From assembly GCA_020049775.1 (NCBI GenBank), contig JAGVLO010000008.1, positions 147,790-211,789 on the forward strand: a stretch of DNA of 64,000 nt, given 5' to 3'. Position 1 is the stretch's first letter. Every line of letters starts with the position of its first letter. Of this stretch, positions 7,242 to 20,755 are shown one piece after another. The position numbers were made by a program, and so were the translations under genes. The notes under the pieces were generated by a model. It was not told where the DNA came from. It was given only the letters and a program-made list of their open reading frames with translations, and searched no databases. Source of the DNA: Alphaproteobacteria bacterium (GTDB taxonomy: Bacteria > Pseudomonadota > Alphaproteobacteria > Rickettsiales > SXRF01).

Positions 7242-8444
7242 CTAAAATTTTATTTTACTGAATGATTCATAGAGCGGACCGAATACTGCCGCAATAACCC
7301 AGAATACCAGAATACCCATAATTACCGTCAATATCGGCTGGATTGCACCCAACATGGCGTCCACCGCGTCTGCCACCTCACGGTTGTAGAAGAAGTTCAC
7401 ATTCTCCAGTGCCTCGGTCATATTACCGCTGTCTTCGCCGACCTTGAACATGCGTATGACAAGGTTGGGAAACTGGTTGGACACGCGCAACGATGCAGCC
7501 AGCGTGCTGCCTTCCGTTACGTTAATCCGCACGGCAGTGATCGCATCCTTAAGCACGCGGTTGCTTACCACGTTTTTTGCCGCGTCCAGCGCCTCAAGCA
7601 TATCGATACCGCTATTGAACATAATGGCAAAGAAATGCGTAAAACGCGCCATGTCTATCTTGCGCAGCACCGGCCCGATAAGTGGCAGGCGCAGCAAAAC
7701 CCAGTCTATCTGGTAGGCAAATAAATCAGATGTCCGGTACAGGAACAGCAACGTCATTATAAATGCTGCAGGCGCACCAAGTATCAAGTACCAGTAGTCC
7801 TCAAATGCCGAGGAAACTGCAATCAGCGCCCGTGTATGCCATGGCAGGCTGAAGCCCTGCGCCATGATGAAATCAATCAGCTTGGGTACGACAAATAGCA
7901 TCAGCACGCTGATAACCACGGCAATCACCGCCAATAATACCAATGGATAAGTCGTCGCTTTTTTCAATTTGCGGCGTATATCAGCCATCCACTTCAAATG
8001 TTCCGCAAGATGATGGAAAGAATCAGCAAGATTGCCGGTTTTTTCACCTGCCGCCACCAACCCTATAAACACATGGCTAAAAACACGCGGATGCTCCGCA
8101 AAGGCCTTTGACAATATATTACCGTTTTTTACGGATTCGTACACACCGGACAGCACGTCGCGCAGTTTCATGGATTCGCTGGCATCGCGCACATCCGCCA
8201 ACGCATCATGTAATGGCACACCGGCGCGCTCCAGCTGCTCAAGATGCAGGCAAAGTACAATTAAATCGCGCAGGCGAATAGCAGAGAAGCGCGAAGCGCG
8301 GCGTTCCCTGACCGGCTTGGCATCCACCAGATCAAGCCCCATATGCTTGAGCCGTGCCTCTAGGTCCAGTTCGTTATCAGCAATGATAAGACCCCTGCTC
8401 TTGCGGCCAGTTTGGTCGATTGCTGTGTAGTTATACGATGCCAT
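7242..8444 (-). CDS. Type IV pilus/T2SS inner-membrane platform protein (PilC/GspF/MshG)
   Basis: This is the polytopic platform protein on which the motor ATPase acts; at 400 residues it has normal family length. It contains two T2SSF repeats, beginning near LCLHLEQLERAGVPLHDAL and near ARFTHFFAIMFNSGIDMLEA. Each is followed by hydrophobic segments (LLAVIAVVISVLMLFVVPKL; ILTVIMGILVFWVIAAVFGP). The N-terminus MASYNYTAIDQTGRKSRGLI matches the conserved start of the family. It lies 9 bp downstream of the PilB/MshE-type ATPase gene, the usual pairing. Confidence 0.88.
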   Translation of the reverse strand: MASYNYTAIDQTGRKSRGLIIADNELDLEARLKHMGLDLVDAKPVRERRASRFSAIRLRDLIVLCLHLEQLERAGVPLHDALADVRDASESMKLRDVLSGVYESVKNGNILSKAFAEHPRVFSHVFIGLVAAGEKTGNLADSFHHLAEHLKWMADIRRKLKKATTYPLVLLAVIAVVISVLMLFVVPKLIDFIMAQGFSLPWHTRALIAVSSAFEDYWYLILGAPAAFIMTLLFLYRTSDLFAYQIDWVLLRLPLIGPVLRKIDMARFTHFFAIMFNSGIDMLEALDAAKNVVSNRVLKDAITAVRINVTEGSTLAASLRVSNQFPNLVIRMFKVGEDSGNMTEALENVNFFYNREVADAVDAMLGAIQPILTVIMGILVFWVIAAVFGPLYESFSKIKF

Positions 8445-8453
8445 GGTCTGTTC

Positions 8454-10262
8454 CTAGAGCCTGTCTGTCAGGTCAACGACGCTGATAAGTTCTTCAAGAT
8501 CGATTTCACCCGCCAGCACACGGTCAATGCCATCTTGCTGCATGGGTACAAAACCGTTGGCCAAGGCATAATCCATCATTTGCTTGCGCGTAGAGCGTGT
8601 TGCAATAAGCTCATCCATGCCGCGGTCAATGCGCAGTACCTCGATAATCGCCATGCGGCCTTTGTAGCCTTTTTGTTTACATTTTTCGCAACCGGCCGGC
8701 TTATAAATCGTCGGCGGCTTGGAACTGTTCACACCTAGTATCTTGCATTCTTCCGGCGTCGCCGTATGCGCCTGCTTACAGTGCGTACATAATTTGCGCG
8801 TCAGCCTTTGCGCAAGGCAGCCAATCAGCGATCCGGCCAGCAAATGTGCCGGCACGCCAATATCACCCAAACGCGGGATAGCGCCCAGCGCGTCGTTGGT
8901 GTGTAGCGTGGTATAAACCTGATGTCCGGTCAGCGATGCACGCACGGCCATCAGCGCCGTGTCTTCATCGCGCACTTCACCGATGAAAATAATGTCAGGA
9001 TCTTGACGCATCATCGAGCGTATGCCGTTGGAAAAATCAAGGCCGGTGCCTTCGCGCACTGCGCTTTGGCGAATCAGCGGCAGCTGATATTCCACAGGAT
9101 CTTCCAGCGTCATGATGTTAGTATCAATCGCGTTGATATATCCCAGCACCGAATAGAGCGTGGTCGTTTTACCGCTGCCGGTCGGACCGGTAACAATGAT
9201 GATACCCTCAGGGCGTTTAATCAGTTTTTTAAGTAGCGTGATATTATGTTCAGTAAAGCCTAGGTCTTCGAGCTTCACCAGCGACTTTGCTTTGTCGAGA
9301 AGGCGCATCACGATATTTTCACCATGGATTGTCGGTTGTGTCGCCACGCGGAAATCCACCTCGCGGCCCAGCACGTTGTAGGTGATGCGGCCATCCTGTG
9401 GGTTGCGCGATTCGGCAATGTTCATACCGGACATGATTTTGATACGCACCACCATCGCCGACCAGTAATCGCGGTGAAAAGTACGCACCTGTACCATCTG
9501 CCCGTCAATGCGGTAACGCAGGCGCAGGAATGAACCTTCCGGTTCAAAATGGATGTCGGATGCACCGGACTTGATGGCGTCCACCAGCAGCGCATTGACA
9601 AGGCGTACCGTCGGGTTGACATACCCTTCCTGCTTGCCGTCTAGCTTAGCGTTGTCGCGTATGCCGGTTTCGATTTCACGCAAAATACCATCTACGGAAA
9701 TTTCATAATCGTAATACTGGTCTATCAACTCAAGTATTTCACTGTCGGTGCAGTAAATAGGCACAATCTTGCTGCCGCGCGGCATGTGGCGGCGCACCTG
9801 GTCAATGGCCAGCACGTTATACACATCCGCCATGGCCAGCTGCAGGTTGTTATCTTCAAATGATACGGGAATCACCTTGTAGCGCAGGGCCACTTCCTTA
9901 GGCACCATACGCACCACGGCAGAATCGAGCATGCTTGATTTGGGGTCGAATTTGCGCGTACCGGATGATTCCGCCAATACTTCACCCAGCGCGCTTTCGG
10001 TGATGAAGCCCATTTCTACCATAATGGCACCGAGCAGTTTCTTCGCGCTCTTCTGTTCGGTTAGCGCCACCTGCAACTGGTCGGAAGAAATCAGGCCAAG
10101 CGACAACAGGCGTTCACCCAGACGCATTGGCTTGGCCGCTTCAGCAGCAGATTCCTGCGTGTCAGCGGCAGGCATTTTATCGTCAGCCACCAGCGGCGTT
10201 TTCGCTTCCGTAGCAGCAGACGCAGCATCACTATTTTCAGGTGTTGTTTTATTGGTCAGCAT
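8454..10262 (-). CDS. Type IV pilus/T2SS assembly ATPase (PilB/GspE/MshE)
   Basis: This 602-residue motor ATPase would drive pilin polymerisation. A low-complexity Ala-rich N-terminus (1-45) precedes an MshEN-type N-terminal domain (about 46-190, with RLGERLLSLGLISSDQLQVA). The catalytic domain has Walker A GPTGSGKTT at 359-367, Asp box IMTLEDPVEYQ, Walker B DPDIIFIGEVRDED and His box GHQVYTTLHTND. A CxxC...CxxC zinc module sits at C492, C495, C525 and C528. It is the first gene of the leftward assembly operon. The 244 bp upstream (10263-10506) hold no gene; I see a TTGAACATTCAA dyad at 10362-10373 but no convincing promoter and no clear Shine-Dalgarno. Confidence 0.9.
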   Translation of the reverse strand: MLTNKTTPENSDAASAATEAKTPLVADDKMPAADTQESAAEAAKPMRLGERLLSLGLISSDQLQVALTEQKSAKKLLGAIMVEMGFITESALGEVLAESSGTRKFDPKSSMLDSAVVRMVPKEVALRYKVIPVSFEDNNLQLAMADVYNVLAIDQVRRHMPRGSKIVPIYCTDSEILELIDQYYDYEISVDGILREIETGIRDNAKLDGKQEGYVNPTVRLVNALLVDAIKSGASDIHFEPEGSFLRLRYRIDGQMVQVRTFHRDYWSAMVVRIKIMSGMNIAESRNPQDGRITYNVLGREVDFRVATQPTIHGENIVMRLLDKAKSLVKLEDLGFTEHNITLLKKLIKRPEGIIIVTGPTGSGKTTTLYSVLGYINAIDTNIMTLEDPVEYQLPLIRQSAVREGTGLDFSNGIRSMMRQDPDIIFIGEVRDEDTALMAVRASLTGHQVYTTLHTNDALGAIPRLGDIGVPAHLLAGSLIGCLAQRLTRKLCTHCKQAHTATPEECKILGVNSSKPPTIYKPAGCEKCKQKGYKGRMAIIEVLRIDRGMDELIATRSTRKQMMDYALANGFVPMQQDGIDRVLAGEIDLEELISVVDLTDRL

Positions 10263-10506: not shown

Positions 10507-13500
10507 TTAGGCTGCGGACTGGCGCCATTGCAGATGCTTCAGGCACGAGTCAATCCATTGTGCTGTAAGCTTTTCTTGCACTGAATTCTGTTTCAGCCGC
10601 TCACCCAGATGCGCAAAAGACACGGTATCGAGTAGCTGGTCCTGATTGAAGCAGGAATAAACATACGTCTCTTTGCCGGTTACCGGATCAATATGTTTCT
10701 GTAGGCACTGCGCACAAATTTCTTTCATCATGCACTGCATGGGCGAGTTGATGCTACCGATGGCCACATGGTCGGGCCGCAAATGCGGGTGCAACACGCC
10801 ATGGCGCGCAGCGGCCACTGCCTGCATCATGCGGTCGGAACCAATGGCAATAATATGCTGGATGGTAGAAAGCGGAATGTTTGCCTCACCCAGCTTGCCC
10901 TCGCCGTAAGCACGGATGGCTTCCACGATATTGCCGTGGAAAGCCCTGTCCTGCGGCCTGCCGGGGGTGAAGCTGGCTTCATCACAGCACCAGACAATAA
11001 CATCGGCGGCTTTTTCGATTTCCTCAATCTTGTAGCGGTCTATCGCTTTTTTATAACCGGCGAAATAAAGTACTTTTGACCCGCGTTCGCGCATCGCCTT
11101 GCCGATGGAAAATAGCACGGCATTGCCCAGCCCGCCGCCCACAAGCATCACCTGCTCACCCTTGGGAATATGTGTCGGCGTACCTGTCGGACCCATCAAT
11201 ATCACCGGCTCACCCGGCTTCAGATGCGCGCATAAATCCGAAGAACCGCCCATCTCGAGCGTAATCACCGAAATCAGGCCTTGTGCCTTATCCACCCATG
11301 CGCCCGTCAGGGCAAGACCTTCCATGGCCAGCACCGTCGGGCTGCCGTGATGCGCCACACGCACGGCATTGGCTTCAAAATTCTGCAGGCGATAAAACTG
11401 TCCGGGCTCAAACCCACCCGCCGCCAGCGGCGCTTTGATAATCACTTCCACTATGTTGGGTGTCAGGCGATTTACTTGATGAACGCGCGCGCGCAATTGT
11501 TCATTGATGGTATTTATGAAAGCATCGGCAGGTTGGTTGGTTTGCAGGGGGGTTTTGGCAAGTACGCGCGACACCACCGGATAGCCCAGCTTGGCGCTGC
11601 CCATGGCTTTGACCACATTACCGGCAAATGATGGGTGCAAATCACCAAAGAAACTCGCCGACGCACCTTTGTCTCCCGTTGAAAGCAGCACGCGCACTTC
11701 TTTTGGCTTGGTGCTGCGTTCCGGTTTTACCAGCTGGCCGTTTTCATCCACGGCTTTGAAGTATTTGCCGTCTAACTCAAAATGCAGCGGATCTTCGCGT
11801 TGTAACACGGTGTTGGGATTCGTTCCTGCTGCCACCAAAATCGTACGCGCGGGAAGTGTAATAATGTCCTGCGTACCTGCTTTCTTCAGGCCAATGGCGC
11901 TGGCATGGCCGAAGCTATCAACATCTACATGCGCAGGCTCGAATAATTCAGAGAAGAAAATACCTTCTTCAAATGCCTTTTCCACTTCCTCATGGTTCAG
12001 ACGGTAGCTGGGCGCATCAATCAGCCGCTTGCGGTACACCAGTTTAACACCACCCCATTTATCAAGTAATGACCAGACAGCCGGCGTGCGTTTTTCTTTC
12101 TCGGCCTTTTTACGCTCATCGCGAATAGCACGCCCGTGAGCAATGAATTCTTCGGCTATCTGTGTATCTTCTTCGCTCCAGCTGGCGCGCACAATTTTCT
12201 CGCCACGCTCGGCCACCAGCGCTTCGTAACGCGCAAGGAATTTTTCCACCTGCACCGGATAGTAAGCCAGCGATTCAGTGGCCGTATCTATGGCCGTCAG
12301 CCCGCCGCCAATCACCACTACCGGCAGGCGAATCTGCAAATTGGCGATGGAATCTTTTTTAGCAGCACCCGTCAGCTGCAAACTCATCAGGAAATCAGAT
12401 GCCGTGCGCACGCCACGCGCCAGCCCGTTTTTAATATCAAGTATGGTTGGCTTGCCCGCGCCCATGCACAGCGCCACATGATCAAAACCGAGTTGATGCG
12501 CTTTTTCATAAGTAATCGTTGAGCCAAAACGCACACCGCCAATCATGGAAAATTGCGTGCGGCGCTCAAGCAGCAGACGAATAACTTTCAAATAATTCTT
12601 ATCCCAACGCACGGTAATGCCGTATTCCGCTACACCGCCAAAGCCCGCCAGCACACGCTCGTCGAGCGATTCATAGAGCTGACTGATGTCTTTAATGGGT
12701 TCAAACGGCACGCGACCACCTAGCGGTGTCACGCCGGAAACAGCCTCAGGCAGCGGCTCGATTTTAAGCCCGTCAATACCCACCACCGTGTGGCCGTCAT
12801 TCATCAAATGATGCGCTAGCGTATAGCCCGAAGGGCCAAGACCAGCCACCAGCACCTTGTAACCCTTATCAGCCTTGGGTAGCGGACGCTTCAGGTTCAG
12901 CGGATTCCAGCGCGTAAGCAGGCTGTAAATTTCAAAGCCGTATGGCAGGCGCAACACATCGCGCAGAGTATGGGTTTCCACCAATGGGATATTGACCGGA
13001 TCCTGCTTCTGATAAATGCAAGATTTCATGCAGTCGTTGCAAATACGGTGACCCGTGCCTGCGCACATCGGGTTATCCACCGTCACCACCGCCAGCGCCC
13101 CCAGCGGCACGCCTTCGGATTTGAGCATGTTCATTTCGGAGATTTTTTCTTCCAGCGGGCAACCAGCCAGCGTGATTTCCAACGTGTTCTTTTTAAATTC
13201 TCCGGTTTTTTCCTTCAGGCCCTTGGCGCAGGAATCCTTGCCCTGATTATGGCAAAAGATGCAGTAATGTGCATTATCCAGCGCACCCGCCAGCACGCCG
13301 GCGTCATCGGTCAGCGCAAAACCTTCGCGGTGGCGATAGTGACTTTTGTGCAGGCGCATCACCTGCACGCCATCACGCAGCTCCGTTTCAACCGCCACGA
13401 GATTCTCCGGCTCCGGTTTTCTGGGCTGCTTGAACAGTAGGCCGTGTCCATGTTTTTTGCGACCATCATCGCTCAATAATGCCCATGCGGCATAACGTCC

Positions 13501-14001
13501 GGCGATTTCCAGTAATGATTTATGGTCATCTTCTTTTTCCAGCCAGCCCATCACCATAGTGGCAAAAGAAAGCTCAAAGCCGAGGCCAGCATGTTCTTCA
13601 TGCGTATGCGGCAGCGGCAGCATGCCAAGTAACGCTTCTCCGCTGACGCGCTGCACTTCTTCCGGCTTCAGCAGTTTAGCCGCGCGGCGCTGTACAAATA
13701 GGCGCTTGCAGGCATAGAGCGGCGCAAGTTTCTGATGTGTCTGCGCCAGCTGCTTTATCTCGCTTTCAATACCAAACAGCTTGCCGATAAATTGTTCCAC
13801 TTGTGGTGCAAGATCTAGCAATAGTTGCGAATGGTCTTTATCCGAAAGCGTACTGCTATCAGCGCGCGCAGCCATCAAACGGTTGAAAAGCACTACATCC
13901 GCATTTTTCAGTTCCTCAACAAATGCCGAATCCAGCGATACTAAACCGTCACGCTGGTAAAGTTGATCAAAGCTAATGCCAAAGCCAAACGAAGCAGTCA
14001 T
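10507..14001 (-). CDS. GltD-PyrK-like multidomain Fe-S flavoprotein, candidate electron donor to sulfite reductase
   Basis: This is a 1164-residue soluble redox protein with several cofactor modules. Residues 1-230 are mostly helical and not recognised. Cysteines at 247, 250, 258, 281, 313, 321, 324 and 328 suggest one or two Fe-S clusters of the GltD N-terminal type. A first dinucleotide fold (about 382-410, VLVAGLGPSGYTLAHHL) and a second (about 560-580, VVVIGGGLTAIDTATESL) match the GltD family. Residues 840-1075 resemble a PyrK/ferredoxin-reductase module (FEPGQFYRLQNF; VMLVGGGLGNAVLFSIGKAM). The C-terminal cysteines 1090, 1096, 1099 and 1117 have PyrK [2Fe-2S] spacing. It is the last gene of the cys operon, with start and cysNC stop overlapping as TGATG. 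The electron-donor role is inferred from context, since no cysJ is present. Confidence 0.75.
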   Translation of the reverse strand: MTASFGFGISFDQLYQRDGLVSLDSAFVEELKNADVVLFNRLMAARADSSTLSDKDHSQLLLDLAPQVEQFIGKLFGIESEIKQLAQTHQKLAPLYACKRLFVQRRAAKLLKPEEVQRVSGEALLGMLPLPHTHEEHAGLGFELSFATMVMGWLEKEDDHKSLLEIAGRYAAWALLSDDGRKKHGHGLLFKQPRKPEPENLVAVETELRDGVQVMRLHKSHYRHREGFALTDDAGVLAGALDNAHYCIFCHNQGKDSCAKGLKEKTGEFKKNTLEITLAGCPLEEKISEMNMLKSEGVPLGALAVVTVDNPMCAGTGHRICNDCMKSCIYQKQDPVNIPLVETHTLRDVLRLPYGFEIYSLLTRWNPLNLKRPLPKADKGYKVLVAGLGPSGYTLAHHLMNDGHTVVGIDGLKIEPLPEAVSGVTPLGGRVPFEPIKDISQLYESLDERVLAGFGGVAEYGITVRWDKNYLKVIRLLLERRTQFSMIGGVRFGSTITYEKAHQLGFDHVALCMGAGKPTILDIKNGLARGVRTASDFLMSLQLTGAAKKDSIANLQIRLPVVVIGGGLTAIDTATESLAYYPVQVEKFLARYEALVAERGEKIVRASWSEEDTQIAEEFIAHGRAIRDERKKAEKEKRTPAVWSLLDKWGGVKLVYRKRLIDAPSYRLNHEEVEKAFEEGIFFSELFEPAHVDVDSFGHASAIGLKKAGTQDIITLPARTILVAAGTNPNTVLQREDPLHFELDGKYFKAVDENGQLVKPERSTKPKEVRVLLSTGDKGASASFFGDLHPSFAGNVVKAMGSAKLGYPVVSRVLAKTPLQTNQPADAFINTINEQLRARVHQVNRLTPNIVEVIIKAPLAAGGFEPGQFYRLQNFEANAVRVAHHGSPTVLAMEGLALTGAWVDKAQGLISVITLEMGGSSDLCAHLKPGEPVILMGPTGTPTHIPKGEQVMLVGGGLGNAVLFSIGKAMRERGSKVLYFAGYKKAIDRYKIEEIEKAADVIVWCCDEASFTPGRPQDRAFHGNIVEAIRAYGEGKLGEANIPLSTIQHIIAIGSDRMMQAVAAARHGVLHPHLRPDHVAIGSINSPMQCMMKEICAQCLQKHIDPVTGKETYVYSCFNQDQLLDTVSFAHLGERLKQNSVQEKLTAQWIDSCLKHLQWRQSAA

Positions 14002-15965
14002 CAGATGCCCGTTCCCGTATAATCGCGCACGCCGTCATCACCTTCGATAGCAAGATTTTTGGCTGGAACCACCAGCTGATGCTCGACATAGCTAACCAGT
14101 TGGTTGATACATGTTTCAATGTCATATTGTTCTGTATCAATCACAAGGTCGGGATTTTCAGGTACTTCATATGGTGCGCTGACGCCCGTGAATTCTGGTA
14201 TCTCTCCGGCACGCGCTTTTTTATACAAACCTTTGACATCACGTTTCTCGCATGCTTCCAATGATGCCTTAATATACACCATGTGGAATGCTTCCGGTGC
14301 AATTGAGCGCACACGTCGCCTGTCTTCGCGATAAGGTGAAATAAAGGACGTAATCACAATAGTCCCTGCTTGCGCAAAAAGCGCCGCGGTTTCACCCACG
14401 CGGCGGATATTTTCGCTGCGGTCTTCAGGTGAGAAGCCGAGGTCACGGTTTAAACCTTTACGCACATTGTCGCCATCAAGTGCGAACACATTATAGCCTT
14501 TATCAAACAGGCGTTTTTGCAACAGTTTGGCCATGGTTGATTTGCCTGATCCTGAAAGACCGGTAAACCACAACACGCCACCAAAATGTCCGTTGGTCAG
14601 TGCGCGTTGTTCGGCTGTAACACCAAAATCAACACCAAAAATATTGGTGGATTTCACTTCTGATGGCTTCTTGGCGCGCTGGTCAGAAAAACCTTCAGTG
14701 CTGATGATGCCGCCGCCAGCCACGTCATAGTCCTGCACGATGACAAAGCGGCCAAGTTGCGGATTGTTATTAAAATCATCTATAGCGACTATACCACGCG
14801 CGCGCAGCACCACTTCTGCCACATTGCCTCGCTCTACACGCTCGGCTTTTACCTGCGCCAGCGTGTCTGAATCAATCACATGCTCGATGGTTTTGACCTC
14901 AGCCATGATTTCACTGGCCGCGAGCTTTATCTTATAGCGTTTGCCTGTCTCCAGCGGTTTACGGCCAAGCCAGAAAATACGCGCGCGGAACTGGTTGGTC
15001 AGCATCGGTGCTTTTTCTATGTGGCTTGCCACATGCCCGCGCTCAACAAAAATCTGGTCGGTCAGCGTAATACCTACCGACTGGCCCGCATATGCTTCTG
15101 TAGGTTTATTATTATCCGGCCACGCCTCAATGCTGGCAACTTTCACTTGCGTATTGGTAGGTGAAAAAAGCAGCGTATCACCTACCTTCAGGCTGCCGCT
15201 TTCAATGCGTCCAGCAATAATGCGCCGCTCGTCGAATTTATATACATCCTGAACCGGAAAACGCAGCGGCAGACTGGTTTCCGCAGCAGCGACCTTGAAA
15301 TGGTCAAGCATATCGGTCACGCATTCGCTGTTGTACCACGGCATGTTTTTAGAGTTAGCGGTAATGCAATCGCCTTCGCGCGCGGAAATCGGGATAAAGC
15401 AGCTGGGCGTAACGCCGACGCTGGACAAATATTCGCGGTAGTCTTTCTCAATATCGCGGAAGGCTTTTTCGCTGTAGCCAACCATATCCATCTTATTGAC
15501 CAACACGGCAATCTGGCGCACGCCAAGAAGGTGTAGCAAATACCCATGACGCTTGCTCTGTTCACGTATGCCCTCATGGGCATCAATCAGCACCAGTGCG
15601 GCATCGGCCTGCGAAGCGCCGGTAATCATGTTTTTCAGAAATTCTTTGTGGCCGGGCGCATCAATAATCACGACATCGCGCTGCTGTGTGCGCAGCCATA
15701 TCTGGGTGGTGTCGATGGTGATGCCCTGATCACGCTCGGTTTGCAGCGCATCCATCAGGAAAGACCATTCAAACGGCATGCCGCGTTTTTTGCAGCTGGC
15801 CTGAATCGCTTCCATCTTGCCGTCCGGCAATGAGTGCGTGTCATGCAGCAGACGGCCGACCAGCGTAGACTTGCCGTGGTCGACATGGCCTACAATCACA
15901 ATCTTCAGCTGCTGGCGGCTCTGGTTCATTGCTTCTGCTTTAGGTTTTGCCTGTGTTTTAGTCAT
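14001..15965 (-). CDS. cysNC: Bifunctional sulfate adenylyltransferase subunit 1/adenylylsulfate kinase (CysN-CysC)
   Basis: This is a 654-residue fusion. The N-terminal GTPase (CysN) has G1 GHVDHGKST at 26-34, G3 DAPGHKEF and G4 NKMD. It drives APS formation together with CysD. The C-terminal APS kinase (CysC) starts near residue 450 and has Walker [10 protein letters not shown] at 469-477 and the [16 protein letters not shown] motif. The fused NodQ-like arrangement is common in proteobacteria. The start at 15965 gives a short polar leader; an ATG at 15929 is possible. It lies 14 bp after cysD and overlaps the flavoprotein start by one base. Confidence 0.93.
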
Positions 15966-15979
15966 TTTAAATTCCAGTA

Positions 15980-16813
15980 TTACATATAGCCGTCGGCGCG
16001 CAAGCGCTCAAAGCTTGATTCATCTTCATCGGCGCCCATCGGACGGCCGGAGCGCTCAGACACTTTGGTGGTTTTCAGTTCTTCGATAATGGCATCCAGA
16101 GTGGCAGCTTTGCTTTCAATCGGCCAGGTGATGCCTTTTTCACCAAGGCTGCGGAAGCGCATCATTTTACCACCAAAATCTCGGCCTTCCAGCGTATTAT
16201 AGGGCTTGGCATAATAGAGCGGCACGATAGCAATATTCTCGCGCTGTATATATTGCCAGATGTCGAGTTCCGTCCAGTGCAGCAGCGGGTGGATACGAAT
16301 AGAGGTGCCGGGCGCAAAATCGGTCTTGTATTGATCCCAAAACTCCGGTGGCTGTTCTTTTACGTCCCACTGACCTTCCTGACCGCGCGGTGAAAATACG
16401 CGCTCCTTCGCACGCGTTGCTTCTTCGTCGCGGCGGATACCGGCAATAATGCCGACATAACCGTTCTTATCAATCACCTCTTTCAGGCCCAGTGTTTTAC
16501 GAGCTGCAACGCGCGCAGCATGCGGCAGTGTTGCGTCGGTTGCGTCGATCGGCGGACAGAGATAACTTATGAGGTTGATACCCCACTCCTTGGTATAGCG
16601 GTCACGGAATGCATACACCTCTTCCATTTCCAGCTCGGTGTCGCAGTGAATCAGCGGAAACGGCACTTGCCCGAAAAACGCCTTGCGTGCCAGGTGAATC
16701 ATCACATTGCTGTCCTTGCCGAATGACCATAGCATAGCGAGCTTATCGATAGCGTGGAACGCCTCGCGGAATATGTAAATGCTCTGTGCTTCCAGTTTAT
16801 CCAGATGATCCAT
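15980..16813 (-). CDS. cysD: Sulfate adenylyltransferase subunit 2
   Basis: This 277-residue member of the PP-loop ATPase family is the catalytic half of ATP sulfurylase, paired with CysN. The PP-loop-like motif is [20 protein letters not shown] near the N-terminus. The conserved segments [18 protein letters not shown] and [17 protein letters not shown], and the C-terminal [14 protein letters not shown] and [20 protein letters not shown], are typical of CysD. Length is normal for the family. The start overlaps the cysH stop at 16813 and cysNC follows 14 bp later. Confidence 0.95.
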
Positions 16814-17550
16814 TATACGCTCCAGTTACTCACTTCATCGCTGGACAGATGAATCCCGCACTCTGTCTTTTGCTCGTTTTCAATACCAATCGTATGCGCC
16901 CAGCGGCCTGCGCGTTCGTCCTGCCCTTCAGCGACCGGCTTGGTGCATGGCATGCAGCCGATGGAGGGATACCCTTTAGCTACCAGCGGATGCTCCGGCA
17001 AACCACGGTCTTTAGTTTCCTTTTTCTGGCGCTCCTTGTCCCACAGTGCCACCGGATTGATGCGGAAGATGCCTTCTTCATCCAGCTCGATGGTTTCCAT
17101 CTTTGCGCGCTCACTAGTCTGGTAGCGCTTGCGTCCGGTAATCAACGCTTTGATGCACAGCTGCGCAACGGCGCGGTTGAGCGGTTCAACCTTACGCAAC
17201 CAGCAGCAGCGGTTGGGCTGGGTTTTCCATAGCTCACCATCTGAATCAATACGCTCAAGCATTTCCTTATCCGGCGTCAGCCAGTGAACATTCGTAAGCC
17301 CGAGACTATTGGTAAGCGTACGCGCATAATCGAGTGTTTCAGGAAAATGTTTTTGTGTTTCCAGAAATAGTACAGGTGTAGCCTTATCCACTTCTGCCAC
17401 CAGCGAAAGCATCAGTGCTGCGTCTGCACCAAAGGAAGAAATCAGCGCCGCTTCTCCTTTGAATTCTTCGCGCAGGATAATGCGTAGCAGCGGCAGGGCG
17501 TCCAGCTCGCCGTAAAACATTTGCAGGCGTGTGAGTGATACTTCGCTCAT
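16813..17550 (-). CDS. cysH: APS/PAPS reductase with Fe-S cysteine pairs
   Basis: This 245-residue protein reduces activated sulfate to sulfite. It has the PP-loop fold segment ALISSFGADAALMLSLVAEV. The C-terminal catalytic cysteine lies in KTECGIHL (C231). The additional pairs C115-C116 (NRCCWLRK) and C199-x2-C202 (GCMPCTKP) are the [4Fe-4S] ligands that characterise the APS-reducing bacterial and plant-type enzyme rather than the PAPS-only enterobacterial CysH. The substrate is therefore more likely APS, although an APS kinase domain is encoded two genes downstream. The start overlaps the cysG-like stop (ATGA). Confidence 0.9.
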   Translation of the reverse strand: MSEVSLTRLQMFYGELDALPLLRIILREEFKGEAALISSFGADAALMLSLVAEVDKATPVLFLETQKHFPETLDYARTLTNSLGLTNVHWLTPDKEMLERIDSDGELWKTQPNRCCWLRKVEPLNRAVAQLCIKALITGRKRYQTSERAKMETIELDEEGIFRINPVALWDKERQKKETKDRGLPEHPLVAKGYPSIGCMPCTKPVAEGQDERAGRWAHTIGIENEQKTECGIHLSSDEVSNWSV

Positions 17551-18125
17551 GCCGCTTTATCCTTATCGGTAAGCCAGCCTTTTTCAGCAAGATGTGCTTC
17601 AGTGGCGTCAATAACCTCTTTCATGCTGGAGCCACGCGATTTCAACGATAGGCGTAGTTCCGACAGTTCGCGCACATAGCCCGCCCATTCCACGCCAAAA
17701 CGTGCGGCTATGGCATCGCGTACTTTGCGCGCGAGTGTCGGTGAAGCACCGCTAGTGGAAACAGCAATCACCAGCTCGCCACGGCGCACATTGGCGGTGA
17801 AATAAAAATCGCACAAATCATTGATATCTTCGACATTGATAAGTTTACCGGCAGCACGCGCCCAGCGGGCAATTTCTTCGGCCTGCGCGCGCTCTAATGC
17901 AACGGCAAGCACTATACTTGCCGAGCTGACTTCCGCCTGTGTAGGCATTCGTTCTGTAAGGCGGTCACCTGCTTTTTCTTTCAGCTCGGCTGAAGCCTGG
18001 GCAGAAAATACGCGCACATGTGCTGCTGCGTCTTCATCGAGGTACGCAAGCCTGCGCAGTAACAGATCTCCCTGCCCTACGAGCAGAATGGGTATATGTT
18101 TTAGATTGAGCGCTACGGGTAACAT
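17547..18125 (-). CDS. cysG: Precorrin-2 dehydrogenase/sirohydrochlorin ferrochelatase domain (Met8p/CysG N-terminal type)
   Basis: The 192-residue protein corresponds to the N-terminal half of CysG and would make siroheme from precorrin-2. The nucleotide-binding segment ILLVGQGDLLLRRLAYL replaces the usual GGGxVAxRK pattern with GQGDLLLRR, so one glycine and the lysine differ. The downstream dimer region contains INVEDINDLCDFYFTANVRR and the family signature AVSTSGASPTLARKVRDAI. The uroporphyrinogen-III methyltransferase half of CysG is absent here and must be encoded elsewhere. Its position between cysI and cysH fits siroheme supply to sulfite reductase. Confidence 0.85.
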   Translation of the reverse strand: MLPVALNLKHIPILLVGQGDLLLRRLAYLDEDAAAHVRVFSAQASAELKEKAGDRLTERMPTQAEVSSASIVLAVALERAQAEEIARWARAAGKLINVEDINDLCDFYFTANVRRGELVIAVSTSGASPTLARKVRDAIAARFGVEWAGYVRELSELRLSLKSRGSSMKEVIDATEAHLAEKGWLTDKDKAA

Positions 18126-18128
18126 AAA

Positions 18129-19880
18129 CTACTTCGCCCAATCCTTACCTGAAAGCGCATCAACAGCTTTCTGTTTTACCGCAGCCACGCCGTAACGCTG
18201 GCAGAAATCGCCAAAACTTTCGCCCATGCGGCGCTTTTCTTTCCACAGTGCAAACATAGGTTCCAGCACTTCAGATATGGCTTCATACGGCACTTTTTCA
18301 AATACTTTTTCATTCAGGCGCGTGCCTTCAAAATCACCACCGATATAGAGCGCATAATGGTCGGGGGTGCGGCCGACAATACCAATATCGCCGCCGTAAG
18401 GGCGCGAGCAACCATTGGGGCATCCGGCAAGGCGGATGGCGATATTATCACTCAGCACTCCCTGACGCTGCATGGCTTTTTCAATGCCATCCAGCATCGG
18501 CAGCTTCACGCGCTCTGCTTCCGCTAAGGCCTTGCCGCAGGTGGGGTAGGCAACGCAGGCCAGCATGTTGCGGTAAGCGGCCGTCACATCTTCACGCAGC
18601 TTGATGCCGTGCTTGCGCAGTTTCTGTTCAATGGCAGTTCTCTCGCCCATTTCAATATCGCAGAGGATGATATTTTGGTCGGCAGTTAAGCGCAAATCCA
18701 TGCCATATTCCATAATCACTTCACGCAGGCCGGTGCGGATAGCCTCATTTCCACGGTCGATGATACGACCGCTGGAAACGGGAATGCCAAGAAACCATTT
18801 GCCGTCACCTTGCTCATGCCAGCCGGTATGTTCCTCTACGCCGAATTTTCCCATCGGACGCGGGGCATCCATCTTGCGACCCAGATAGCCTTCGAGTGTT
18901 TGTTTCACCCATTCAGTACCATTTTCCTGCACCACATATTTCAGGCGTGCGTGCTGGCGGTCACCACGGTCACCGTGGTCACGCTGCAATTTGATGACGG
19001 CTTCGGTAGCCGGAATGAATAGTTCCGACGGCACATACATGACGGGTGTTGCAACGCGCGGATACGTCTTAGCCGAATTATGCTTCATCCCCATGCCGCC
19101 GCCGAGCGCAAAATTATAGCCTGCATGCTCCTGCCCGTTGAAGAGCGATAAAATGGCAAGGTCGTGCGACAGCACATCGATGCAGTTATCTTCCGGCGTG
19201 CTGATGCCGATTTTGAATTTGCGCGGCATGTACGTATCGCCGTAAAGCGGCTCGGCTACGCCGGAATCATTTGACGTAGGCGCAAACGGATAGTCATGCA
19301 CTTTTTCGCCGTCCATCCACACTTCGTAGTAAGCACCGGTTTTCGGCGCGCAGTGGCGTGCGAGCAAAAATGCGTCCTGCTCCAACTTGTCATGCAGCTT
19401 GTCTTTAACAGGTGCGGGGCATGTCATGATATTGCGCACCACGTCACCGCAACCACCCAGCGTGGAAAGCAGCAGGCGGTTGATATCGGCAATCAGCAGT
19501 TTCATGCCCACTTTTTTGATGCAATGGAACTGGAACGTCTCGCGGGTGGTGATACGCAGCGTACCGTTGGCGTATTTATCCACCAGCGCATCAAGGGCAA
19601 TATACTGCGCGGCGTTCAGGCGGCCGCCCGGGCATTTCATACGCACCATGAATTCCCACTCTTTATCCAGCCCCTGCTTTTTTCGCTCGGTCGCCGAATC
19701 ACGGTCATAGCCGAAATAGCTGCCGTGGAATTTCAGCAGCTCGTACGTTTCATCGGTCACTTCCGGCGTAGACAAATCTGCCAATTCCTGCGCAATCTTG
19801 CCCTTGAGATGCTGGCTTTCGCGCTTGATGCCTTCCTGTCCGGAGTGCTTTTTAGGTGCGGCTGTGGTTGAATCGGTCAT
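18129..19880 (-). CDS. cysI: Sulfite reductase hemoprotein beta-component
   Basis: This 583-residue siroheme/[4Fe-4S] enzyme carries out the six-electron reduction of sulfite to sulfide. It has two nitrite/sulfite-reductase half repeats. Its cluster ligands are in CVAYPTCGKALAEAE and RLAGCPNGCSRPY (C-x5-C and C-x3-C), as in enterobacterial CysI. The siroheme-binding basic segment (RITTRETFQFHCIKK) is present. The family normally works with the NADPH flavoprotein CysJ, which is not encoded in the window. It is the first gene of the cys operon, and a perfect inverted repeat lies ~95 bp upstream. Confidence 0.95.
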   Translation of the reverse strand: MTDSTTAAPKKHSGQEGIKRESQHLKGKIAQELADLSTPEVTDETYELLKFHGSYFGYDRDSATERKKQGLDKEWEFMVRMKCPGGRLNAAQYIALDALVDKYANGTLRITTRETFQFHCIKKVGMKLLIADINRLLLSTLGGCGDVVRNIMTCPAPVKDKLHDKLEQDAFLLARHCAPKTGAYYEVWMDGEKVHDYPFAPTSNDSGVAEPLYGDTYMPRKFKIGISTPEDNCIDVLSHDLAILSLFNGQEHAGYNFALGGGMGMKHNSAKTYPRVATPVMYVPSELFIPATEAVIKLQRDHGDRGDRQHARLKYVVQENGTEWVKQTLEGYLGRKMDAPRPMGKFGVEEHTGWHEQGDGKWFLGIPVSSGRIIDRGNEAIRTGLREVIMEYGMDLRLTADQNIILCDIEMGERTAIEQKLRKHGIKLREDVTAAYRNMLACVAYPTCGKALAEAERVKLPMLDGIEKAMQRQGVLSDNIAIRLAGCPNGCSRPYGGDIGIVGRTPDHYALYIGGDFEGTRLNEKVFEKVPYEAISEVLEPMFALWKEKRRMGESFGDFCQRYGVAAVKQKAVDALSGKDWAK

Positions 19881-19999: not shown

Positions 20000-20755
20000 T
20001 CAATTACCATTATTTCTTAAAATGTTAGCTAGATCTGGCCATAAAACACAGAGTAGCAGTGAAGCCGCCAGCGCGGGTGCAAACGGGAATTCCGGCCCCC
20101 TGCCCAACGCCCGCCACAGCAGGCCGGTCATGACGCCGAAAACGCCAATCATGAATAAAAACACCACCAGCCCCAGCGGCCCAAGCCATGCGCCTGCCAC
20201 CGCAAAATACTTCACATCGCCATATCCCAGCCCGTCGCGCTTGCGCAGCGCATAGTAGCCGTGATGCAGCACCAGCCCAAGCAGCGCCGCCAACGCAAAG
20301 CCGTATGCTACCTGCTCATCGAACGTACCTGAAAGTACATGATACGCCAGCGCACACGACAGAAGTGCTACATGGATGACATCAGGGATAATGTAATGTT
20401 CCACATCCACCACTACCATTACCATCAACGTCACCGCCATCAGGTACAGCGGCATCGCAGGCAATGTCAGCCCGTGCTGCGAATAAACGAGAAGAAATAA
20501 TGAAGCTGTAGATATTTCTATCAGCGGGTAGCGCATGCCGATGGCGGCATTACACTGGCGGCAGCGGCCTTTTGAAAACAGCCACGACAGCAGTGGCACA
20601 AGGTCACGCGCGGCAAGCGTTGTTTTGCAGGAAGGACAGCGTGAACGCGAAAAACCCATGCGTTCCTCGCGCGGAAGGCGGTGCGCAACCATAGTCACAA
20701 AGCTGCCAAAACACAGCCCCGCAACAACTACAATTAGCAGTTCCCAAATAAACAT
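20000..20755 (-). CDS. pilD: Prepilin peptidase/N-methyltransferase (A24 family)
   Basis: This 251-residue polytopic aspartic protease cleaves and N-methylates prepilins. The N-terminal A24 domain contains FGSFVTMVAHRLPR and a zinc-type tetracysteine (CPSC...CRQC) in a cytoplasmic loop. The catalytic aspartates are in VDVEHYIIPD and GLGYGDVKYF. There are six to eight hydrophobic helices. It is the enzyme needed by the pilus system at 1-10262, although it lies ~10 kb away between the fatty-acid oxidation and cys genes. It follows the acyl-CoA dehydrogenase gene by 40 bp on the same strand. Confidence 0.92.
   Translation of the reverse strand: MFIWELLIVVVAGLCFGSFVTMVAHRLPREERMGFSRSRCPSCKTTLAARDLVPLLSWLFSKGRCRQCNAAIGMRYPLIEISTASLFLLVYSQHGLTLPAMPLYLMAVTLMVMVVVDVEHYIIPDVIHVALLSCALAYHVLSGTFDEQVAYGFALAALLGLVLHHGYYALRKRDGLGYGDVKYFAVAGAWLGPLGLVVFLFMIGVFGVMTGLLWRALGRGPEFPFAPALAASLLLCVLWPDLANILRNNGN

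Follow-up and report, generated by a model that had tools for sequence, protein, structure and literature searches.

A single-chain Nfn-type iron-sulfur flavoprotein of Rickettsiales cys operons as a candidate electron supplier for sulfite reductase

Introduction

From which protein does an assimilatory sulfite reductase receive its electrons when the genome that encodes it holds no CysJ? This question is raised by a stretch of 64,000 nucleotides from an alphaproteobacterium of the order Rickettsiales (contig JAGVLO010000008.1 of assembly GCA_020049775.1, positions 147,790 to 211,789 of the forward strand), which is called the window in the following. It carries cysI, cysG (N-terminal domain), cysH, cysD and cysNC and, directly behind them, the gene for an iron-sulfur flavoprotein of 1164 amino acids, for which we use the working name FUS. 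The genome comprises 2.54 Mb in 15 contigs and is rated 100% complete. A reading made from the sequence alone had described the six genes as one tight leftward operon ending in FUS, and this is borne out in full: all open reading frames (ORFs) are in place, the Pfam and NCBIfam names agree, and by their coordinates the genes either overlap by 1 or 4 bases or are separated by 3 or 14. The stop codon of cysNC and the start codon of FUS share one base in the sequence TGATG. We argue here, with slightly better than even confidence, that FUS acts as an NAD(P)H-to-Fe-S reductase in one chain, which supplies CysI with low-potential electrons in place of CysJ and has other clients elsewhere.

Results

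Electron donors encoded in the genome

The absence of cysJ, noted before for the window, was followed up by a profile search of the whole genome, which yielded no protein with PF00667, the FAD domain of the CysJ type. When 14 known genomes were searched likewise as a control, three gave a match, including that of E. coli. PF00175, the domain of plant-type ferredoxin-NADP reductases (FNR), is likewise missing from the genome, in a search that did not cover TrxB-like or adrenodoxin-reductase-like ferredoxin reductases. Of the two kinds of donor that the sequence-only reading had named as worth looking for, the domain of CysJ is absent, and one ferredoxin candidate, a stand-alone Fer2-domain protein in a frame of 119 amino acids, is present.

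FUS and cysJ in the cysI operons of the order

In 90 genomes of relatives from the order, FUS was detected in 68 and CysI in 40. One FUS match (G046, E 8e-4, 16 bits) was excluded, leaving 67 FUS genomes. Gene neighbourhoods were compared for 46 loci fetched with flanks from the 68 genomes, plus three short loci, two further ones and the window. The cys neighbour of FUS is cysNC in 24 of the 46 loci, at a distance of at most 15 bases in 16 of these 24, and the full order cysI-G-H-D-NC-FUS recurs in seven families (f1, f6, f8, f9, f17, f23 and f27).

FUS lies within the cysI operon in 18 cysI genomes, the one with the window counted, and in none of them is cysJ found beside cysI. Among the other 22 cysI genomes, a cysJ-type gene is present in ten, beside cysI in nine and on another contig in one (G088). 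Fisher's test gives P = 0.0008 for this exclusion (0/18 versus 10/22; relatedness not controlled) and P = 0.011 when any protein with PF00667 is counted (1/18 versus 10/22). Six genomes hold both FUS and cysJ. In all six, FUS is on a contig other than that of cysI. None of the six FUS genes has a visible cys neighbour, though three of them are close to or directly at the end of their contig. Split arrangements were also found: G031 has cysD-cysNC-FUS and cysI-G-H on separate contigs, and in four genomes FUS adjoins cysNC while cysI was not detected (G018, G023, G036 and G053, three of which are rated below 90% complete and G023 95%).

Two cysI frames of the CysJ type contain in-frame stops, three TAA in L033 (G050:C17) and one TAA in G074:C21, which points to decay or to an error of assembly. 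Both genomes keep FUS.

The sulfite reductase next to FUS

The sequence-only reading assumed that a CysI of this type normally uses CysJ. This turned out to be wrong, as the enzyme falls into a clade apart from the CysJ-linked ones, and the model for ferredoxin-dependent sulfite reductases fits it slightly better. A tree was calculated from 46 CysI sequences, of which 37 come from the 40 cysI genomes (G011, G071 and G074 left out) and nine from outside the order. It separates eight CysJ-linked sequences (support 0.996), 29 sequences on the side of FUS (0.919) and the nine outside ones (1.0). The CysJ-linked enzymes favour the NADPH model by 250-253 bits in five of five cases, whereas those of the FUS clade favour the ferredoxin model by 12-44 bits in four of five. 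For the window CysI the ferredoxin-dependent model gives 549 bits and the NADPH model 511 (a difference of +38, both scores being under the cut-offs), and the nearest solved structure is the maize ferredoxin sulfite reductase with 416 bits, compared to 370 for the E. coli enzyme. By these scores the clade of the window CysI leans toward the ferredoxin-dependent enzymes. The four cluster cysteines of the [4Fe-4S]-siroheme centre are intact in the motifs CVAYPTC (CxxxxxC) and GCPNGC.

In genus g3 (L101 and L106) CysI is strongly diverged, cysD and cysNC are diverged as well, and FUS is well conserved; cysG and cysH do not adjoin.

Other reductases were searched for among the relatives. Thirteen FUS genomes have PF00175 proteins, none of them Fpr-like: six are cysJ, two are flavohemoproteins (G001, G038), three are ferredoxin reductases of the oxygenase type (G010, G013, G067) and two are CysJ-like reductases (G009, G023). 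Five genomes with a CysI of the FUS side have neither FUS nor CysJ, and two of these (G035, G078) encode an Fpr-like FNR of 277-283 amino acids. A third one, of 270 amino acids, is found in G055, which has no FUS and no detected cysI. All three reach 119-129 bits on the Fpr model, the cut-off of which is 390.

Build of FUS

A structure prediction for FUS (mean pLDDT 87, pTM 0.89) and an alignment of 28 FUS sequences confirm the domains that had been read from the sequence, namely two dinucleotide folds, GltD-like Fe-S cysteines, a ferredoxin-reductase-like module and a PyrK-type [2Fe-2S] site. In the predicted structure, a stretch of about residues 191-820 matches NfnL (5jfc_L; root-mean-square deviation 2.5 over 434 residues) and GltD (2vdc_G; 3.0 over 417 residues) with a tied Z of 23.8. 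The C-terminal third matches NfnS (5jca_S) with a TM-score of 0.85 on the target, and PyrK (5ksw_B) with Z 14.0 and a deviation of 2.4 over 254 residues. All seven cysteine ligands of the [4Fe-4S] clusters, E342 and the four [2Fe-2S] cysteines are invariant across the 28 sequences. The predicted cofactor sites of the GltD-like module are retained in their ligand cysteines and in their FAD and nucleotide motifs. E342, the codon of which lies outside 13018..13263, is aligned to E126 of 5jca_L, the Glu126 ligand of NfnL; this match is no proof of bifurcation.

The N-terminal domain, residues 1-190, was predicted alone with a pLDDT of 94. No match to it was found in the PDB (best E 3.2; best VIA Z 3.9), which does not prove a new fold. 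In a survey of 299 genomes of the phylum, with at most 11 first-look candidates scored per genome, the domain was found in 15, always opening a FUS-like frame. Thirteen of these frames have 1142-1204 amino acids and two are shorter, including that of G156, a FUS split across contigs.

Occurrence outside the order

A wider scan of public genomes gave at least 570 encoding stretches, of which the 80 best were evaluated. Many of these come from metagenome-assembled genomes, and the identity in the best segment is 60-65%. The deposited titles name Alpha-, Beta- and Gammaproteobacteria, Acidobacteria and Planctomycetes; two of the 80 loci belong to genomes of the order (L121 = G036, L153 = G053). 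The structure-alignment sets contain the window together with 58 (A2) or 37 (A3) of the 80 loci. In a sample of the phylum FUS is rare (13/219).

A sulfite reductase (SiR)-like gene is present in the fetched flank of 8 of the 80 loci, on the same strand in seven and accompanied by cysH-D-N in four. L188, L192 and L199 have the order SiR-cysH-cysD-cysN-FUS followed by pnt genes, and L198 differs from them by additional genes in between. In L122 and L145 the SiR gene is directly or nearly upstream of FUS, and in L194 it is near FUS with no cysHDN. Within the phylum sample, G190 shows SiR-cysH-cysD-cysN, a sensor kinase, a response regulator and then FUS. The sulfite reductases of the Nitrosomonas-type genomes belong to two families (578-582 and 704-720 amino acids) with 24-26% identity to the window CysI where BLAST matched. 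Their five FUS sequences in the tree described below form one clade (support 1.0) and are about 60% identical to the window FUS. That FUS stays while its sulfite reductase partner differs would speak more for a carrier, for instance ferredoxin, than for a tight interface between FUS and CysI.

Putative transhydrogenase genes pntAA-pntAB-pntB follow FUS in L188, L192, L198, L199 and L174, where pntA was identified in L188 only and the next two genes are named from size and order.

An NIR_SIR domain occurs in 56 of 59 FUS genomes elsewhere (48 from the 80 scan loci and 11 further genomes). This domain is found in nitrite reductases, too, and the count covers FUS genomes only, so that it gives weak support.

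FUS of the symbionts

An unrooted tree was calculated from the 28 FUS sequences of the order and 56 of the 80 scan loci (22 unaligned; L121 and L153 dropped). It contains one clade of the 17 sequences of the order that are not linked to cys genes (support 1.0) and one of the 56 outside sequences (0.999), and the 11 cys-linked sequences are placed between these two. If the root is placed on the outside sequences, the FUS of the symbionts would descend from that of the cys operons, in line with parts of PMC9352585, where sulfate assimilation is inferred to have been lost. Passages of the same source describe free-living Rickettsiales with sulfate assimilation.

The PyrK-type nucleotide motif is lost in three genomes of genus g18, which appears to be Rickettsia-like, and in family f16. 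The [4Fe-4S] cysteines and the nucleotide motif on the GltD side remain in both lineages (the motif of two f16 sequences shows a single G-to-C change), and the [2Fe-2S] cysteines are kept wherever the end of the protein is present, the third f16 sequence (G075) being cut by a contig end. The kept core of one nucleotide site, FAD and three clusters would suit a reductase better than an obligate NAD/NADP transhydrogenase.

In the three g18 loci (L082-L084) a stretch of the PyrK-type domain is lost together with the motif, and all cluster cysteines are kept.

Features and setting of the operon

The coordinates of the genes and of the predicted parts of FUS are given in Table 1. The operon is enclosed by a type IV pilus cluster with genes at 7242-10262 and 20000-20755 of the window; a pilD-like prepilin peptidase gene lies on one side, a pilB-like ATPase gene and a pilC-like gene on the other. 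In L101 a prepilin peptidase gene adjoins cysI as well, and ORF lengths suggest likewise for more genomes of the family. Scans of the window for tRNA genes and Rfam families gave no match.

Table 1. Genes of the cys operon and predicted parts of FUS in window coordinates
Feature	Coordinates	Strand	Basis
cysI, sulfite reductase hemoprotein, 583 aa	18129..19880	-	ORF, Pfam, NCBIfam
cysG N-terminal domain (siroheme synthase-type NAD-binding domain), 192 aa	17547..18125	-	ORF, Pfam, NCBIfam
cysH, phosphoadenosine phosphosulfate (PAPS)/adenosine phosphosulfate (APS) reductase, 245 aa	16813..17550	-	ORF, Pfam, NCBIfam
cysD, sulfate adenylyltransferase small subunit, 277 aa	15980..16813	-	ORF, Pfam, NCBIfam
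cysNC, sulfate adenylyltransferase large subunit and APS kinase fusion, 654 aa	14001..15965	-	ORF, Pfam, NCBIfam
FUS, 1164 aa, relative of PRK06567 below its cut-off	10507..14001	-	ORF, NCBIfam
FUS residues 1-190, all-helical N-terminal domain	13432..14001	-	Predicted structure, no PDB match
FUS residues 191-820, GltD/NfnL/DPD-like module with predicted two [4Fe-4S], FAD and NAD(P)H sites; insert near 580-650	11542..13431	-	Fold and alignment
Codons of cluster ligands C247, C250, C258, C281 and C321, C324, C328	13018..13263	-	Alignment of 28 FUS
FUS residues 830-1164, PyrK/NfnS-like FAD/NAD/[2Fe-2S] module	10507..11514	-	Fold and alignment
PyrK-type nucleotide motif GGGLGNAVLFSIG, residues 955-967	11101..11139	-	Alignment; gone from two symbiont lineages
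Codons of C1090, C1096, C1099, C1117 ([2Fe-2S], C-x5-C-x2-C-x17-C)	10651..10734	-	Alignment

Discussion

A proposed route from NAD(P)H to CysI

In the proposed mechanism NAD(P)H would bind at the GltD-like site and reduce the FAD of the middle module. From there the electrons would pass through the pair of [4Fe-4S] clusters, through the [2Fe-2S] site of the PyrK-like module, or through both, and reach a one-electron acceptor. This is most likely the [2Fe-2S] ferredoxin of the cell, and the reduced carrier would in turn reduce the [4Fe-4S]-siroheme of CysI. The delivery of electrons, their direction and the use of ferredoxin as carrier are inferred from the build of FUS and its gene context. 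A passage of electrons from NAD(P)H via FUS to CysI, or their bifurcation, had already been suggested from the sequence alone. The passage to CysI gains from the lack of CysJ-type domains in the genome, the recurrence of the operon, the near-exclusion of cysJ and the Nitrosomonas-type loci; it loses insofar as this CysI is not of the CysJ type and FUS is not dedicated to CysI.

Several observations weigh against a supply of CysI by FUS. The sequence-only reading had named a fusion found mostly in genomes without cysI as an argument against the role, and this applies in part: 36 of the 67 FUS genomes of the order have no detected cysI, some of these genomes being incomplete. FUS is not associated with cysI either, being present in 31 of 40 genomes with cysI and in 36 of 50 without (P = 0.63). 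The expected pattern of FUS with cysI and without cysJ holds for the operons, where FUS nearly excludes cysJ, and fails for the mere presence of FUS, which is not tied to that of cysI. G023 (L078, G023:C17) retains cysD-cysNC-FUS with no cysI found, and G009 has, besides its cysI-FUS operon, a protein of 375 amino acids with CysJ reductase domains and no flavodoxin domain on another contig (L227:1056-2183, G009:C7). Two enzymes depart from the ferredoxin-like scores: the CysI of L062 is reversed by 13 bits (496 ferredoxin versus 509 NADPH), and the divergent FUS-linked CysI of G003 favours the NADPH model by 58 bits (264 versus 322). In G003 and G008 CysI is divergent and no cysG or cysH adjoins, yet FUS is 72% identical; by alignment the four cluster cysteines are kept in both enzymes. 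A CysI of the FUS clade without FUS is found in G025 and G037 (100% complete) and in G076 (53%), and no donor was found there among the families searched. Outside the order, 72 of the 80 scan loci have no sulfite reductase in the fetched flank, which is often short, and CysJ-type domains are present in 9 of the 59 FUS genomes elsewhere compared to 40 of the 219 genomes in the phylum sample. As these two proportions are similar, the absence of CysJ domains from FUS genomes elsewhere says nothing by itself, and it was dropped as support after this phylum control.

A role of FUS as exclusive partner of CysI was rejected because of the 36 FUS genomes without detected cysI. Together with the missing association they show that FUS is not dedicated to CysI. 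As FUS is also retained where no sulfite reductase was detected, it would have at least one other client.

Other roles of FUS

These genomes lead to the most serious alternative, to which we assign a real but clearly lesser chance. Here FUS would be a general NAD(P)H:ferredoxin reductase or an Nfn-like transhydrogenase that stands in the cys operon because of the need of this pathway for NADPH or reduced ferredoxin, with its main client elsewhere, such as Fe-S cluster building or other ferredoxin enzymes. Besides the many FUS genomes without cysI, it is supported by the cluster cysteines, which are invariant in FUS of cysI-less genomes, too, and are kept in g18 and f16 despite the loss of the PyrK motif. 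The few FUS neighbours scanned in cysI-less genomes are unrelated (psd, rlmE, ABC transporter genes), and no shared functional neighbour was found among them. Taken alone, such a housekeeping role leaves unexplained why FUS recurs in cys operons whose sulfite reductases are of different families and why cysJ is nearly excluded from genomes with FUS-cysI operons.

A bolder form of the supply of CysI by FUS appears improbable to us, though worth stating. FUS would then provide a third way of feeding sulfite reductase besides CysJ and FNR/ferredoxin, by Nfn-type bifurcation from NADPH to NAD+ and to a ferredoxin set to reduce sulfite. This supply would be ancestral in free-living Rickettsiales, and the enzyme would have outlasted sulfate assimilation where this pathway disappeared. 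Two symbiont lineages would further have stripped it of the second nucleotide site, leaving a plain ferredoxin reductase.

It is quite unlikely that FUS serves another step of the sulfur operon, e.g., redox balancing for the formation or reduction of PAPS, so that its link would be to cysD-cysNC and not to CysI. The tightest link of FUS is indeed that to cysNC, and G031 and G023 hold cysD-cysNC-FUS apart from or without cysI. However, neither ATP sulfurylase nor APS kinase requires electrons, the electron donor of CysH-type enzymes is thioredoxin, and the Nitrosomonas-type loci show the same order with a sulfite reductase upstream.

FUS is almost certainly not a glutamate synthase beta subunit, as the name of the database family implies, or a glutamine-splitting enzyme. 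The middle module has a GltD-like fold and FUS gives weak matches to GltD models, but the genome encodes a separate gltB (1511 amino acids) adjoining gltD (476 amino acids, over the TIGR01318 cut-off), and the role as glutamate synthase was rejected on this ground. In addition, library scans found no glutaminase domain in FUS, and several FUS genomes have only weak PF01645 matches in short frames (G021, 495 amino acids), none of the size of GltB. Glutamine splitting was proposed for a Neorickettsia protein labelled 2-polyprenylphenol hydroxylase/glutamate synthase in a part of PMC5481527; the separate GltBD of the window genome makes this role doubtful for the namesake. It is just as hard to believe that FUS is the electron-transfer partner of a dihydroorotate dehydrogenase. 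Its C-terminal module does resemble PyrK and has a [2Fe-2S] site made of cysteines alone, but the gene stands with cys genes in the window and in 24 of the 46 loci, and PyrK has no GltD-like module.

Implications

Sulfate assimilation without cysJ may be scored as incomplete, and parts of PMC9352585 call the pathway partial in Mitibacteraceae. FUS is a concrete candidate for this gap in Rickettsiales and in Nitrosomonas-type bacteria. Our results also question the name glutamate synthase/polyprenylphenol hydroxylase that has been carried into pathogen genomes, and they call for an explanation of why a flavoprotein with three clusters is retained by genomes in which no sulfite reductase was detected. 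The build of FUS is already known from fused Nfn homologues (PMC6405883, in part). No report of a link between FUS and assimilatory sulfite reduction was found in the open-licence PMC literature, as judged by titles, the first lines of abstracts and selected passages.

Comparison with known systems

The systems closest to FUS in structure are NfnAB/NfnSL, the electron-bifurcating NADH-dependent ferredoxin:NADP+ oxidoreductases (PDB 5JCA, 4YLF), which are among the nearest folds for both modules and share the two [4Fe-4S] sites and the glutamate at E342 (Glu126 of NfnL). In difference to NfnSL, FUS combines both modules in a single chain, where the GltD-like module precedes the other, and it has an additional N-terminal domain and an insert of about 60 residues; it is linked here to assimilatory sulfate reduction. 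The [2Fe-2S] site of FUS is all-Cys (C1090 in C-x5-C-x2-C), whereas NfnS reads VDGTGMCGAC (D-x4-C-x2-C). We take the aspartate of this motif to be the [2Fe-2S] ligand in NfnS, as follows from the placement of the glutamate on a [4Fe-4S] cluster, and such an Asp ligand is missing from FUS. According to a part of PMC9503767, the two first acceptors of NfnSL have an Asp or Glu ligand, with the Glu on a [4Fe-4S] cluster.

Fused Nfn homologues of 'pattern C' from Actinobacteria, Alpha- and Gammaproteobacteria share with FUS the single chain and the C-terminal position of the NfnA-like domains, and their properties are described as uncharacterised in the passages concerned of PMC6405883. The word 'sulfite' does not occur in the main text of that paper. 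PRK12779 probably represents this family, and FUS reaches 78 bits on it compared to 783 on PRK06567. The latter (NF005128, 'putative bifunctional glutamate synthase subunit beta/2-polyprenylphenol hydroxylase') is by far the strongest match in the two libraries scanned and is colinear with FUS, with the best stretch at residues 5-981. At 783.5 bits FUS remains below the curated cut-off of 1072 and by the rule of the curators is not a member. Five of the 90 genomes of the order score above this cut-off; they have 1.2-2.0 Mb, are single-contig in four cases and are presumably Rickettsia-like. FesR (PMC8957926, in part) was followed as a possible relative of FUS and dropped.

CysJ, which is of the flavodoxin-FNR type, shares with FUS the proposed job of bringing electrons from NAD(P)H to a CysI-type hemoprotein. 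The two have no Pfam domain in common, as FUS matches neither PF00667 nor PF00175. In systems of FNR and ferredoxin the reductase gene is co-regulated with the sulfite reductase gene or near to it in locus number, and in this they resemble FUS. Precedents for a reductase that works with sulfite reductase are given in parts of two papers, namely fpr2-cysIXHDNYZ of Corynebacterium glutamicum (PMC2580772) and SPO2637/SPO2377 with SPO2634 of Ruegeria pomeroyi (PMC13188885). The fpr2 and SPO reductases are annotated as ferredoxin-NADP reductases, whereas FUS is a three-cluster chain of the Nfn type.

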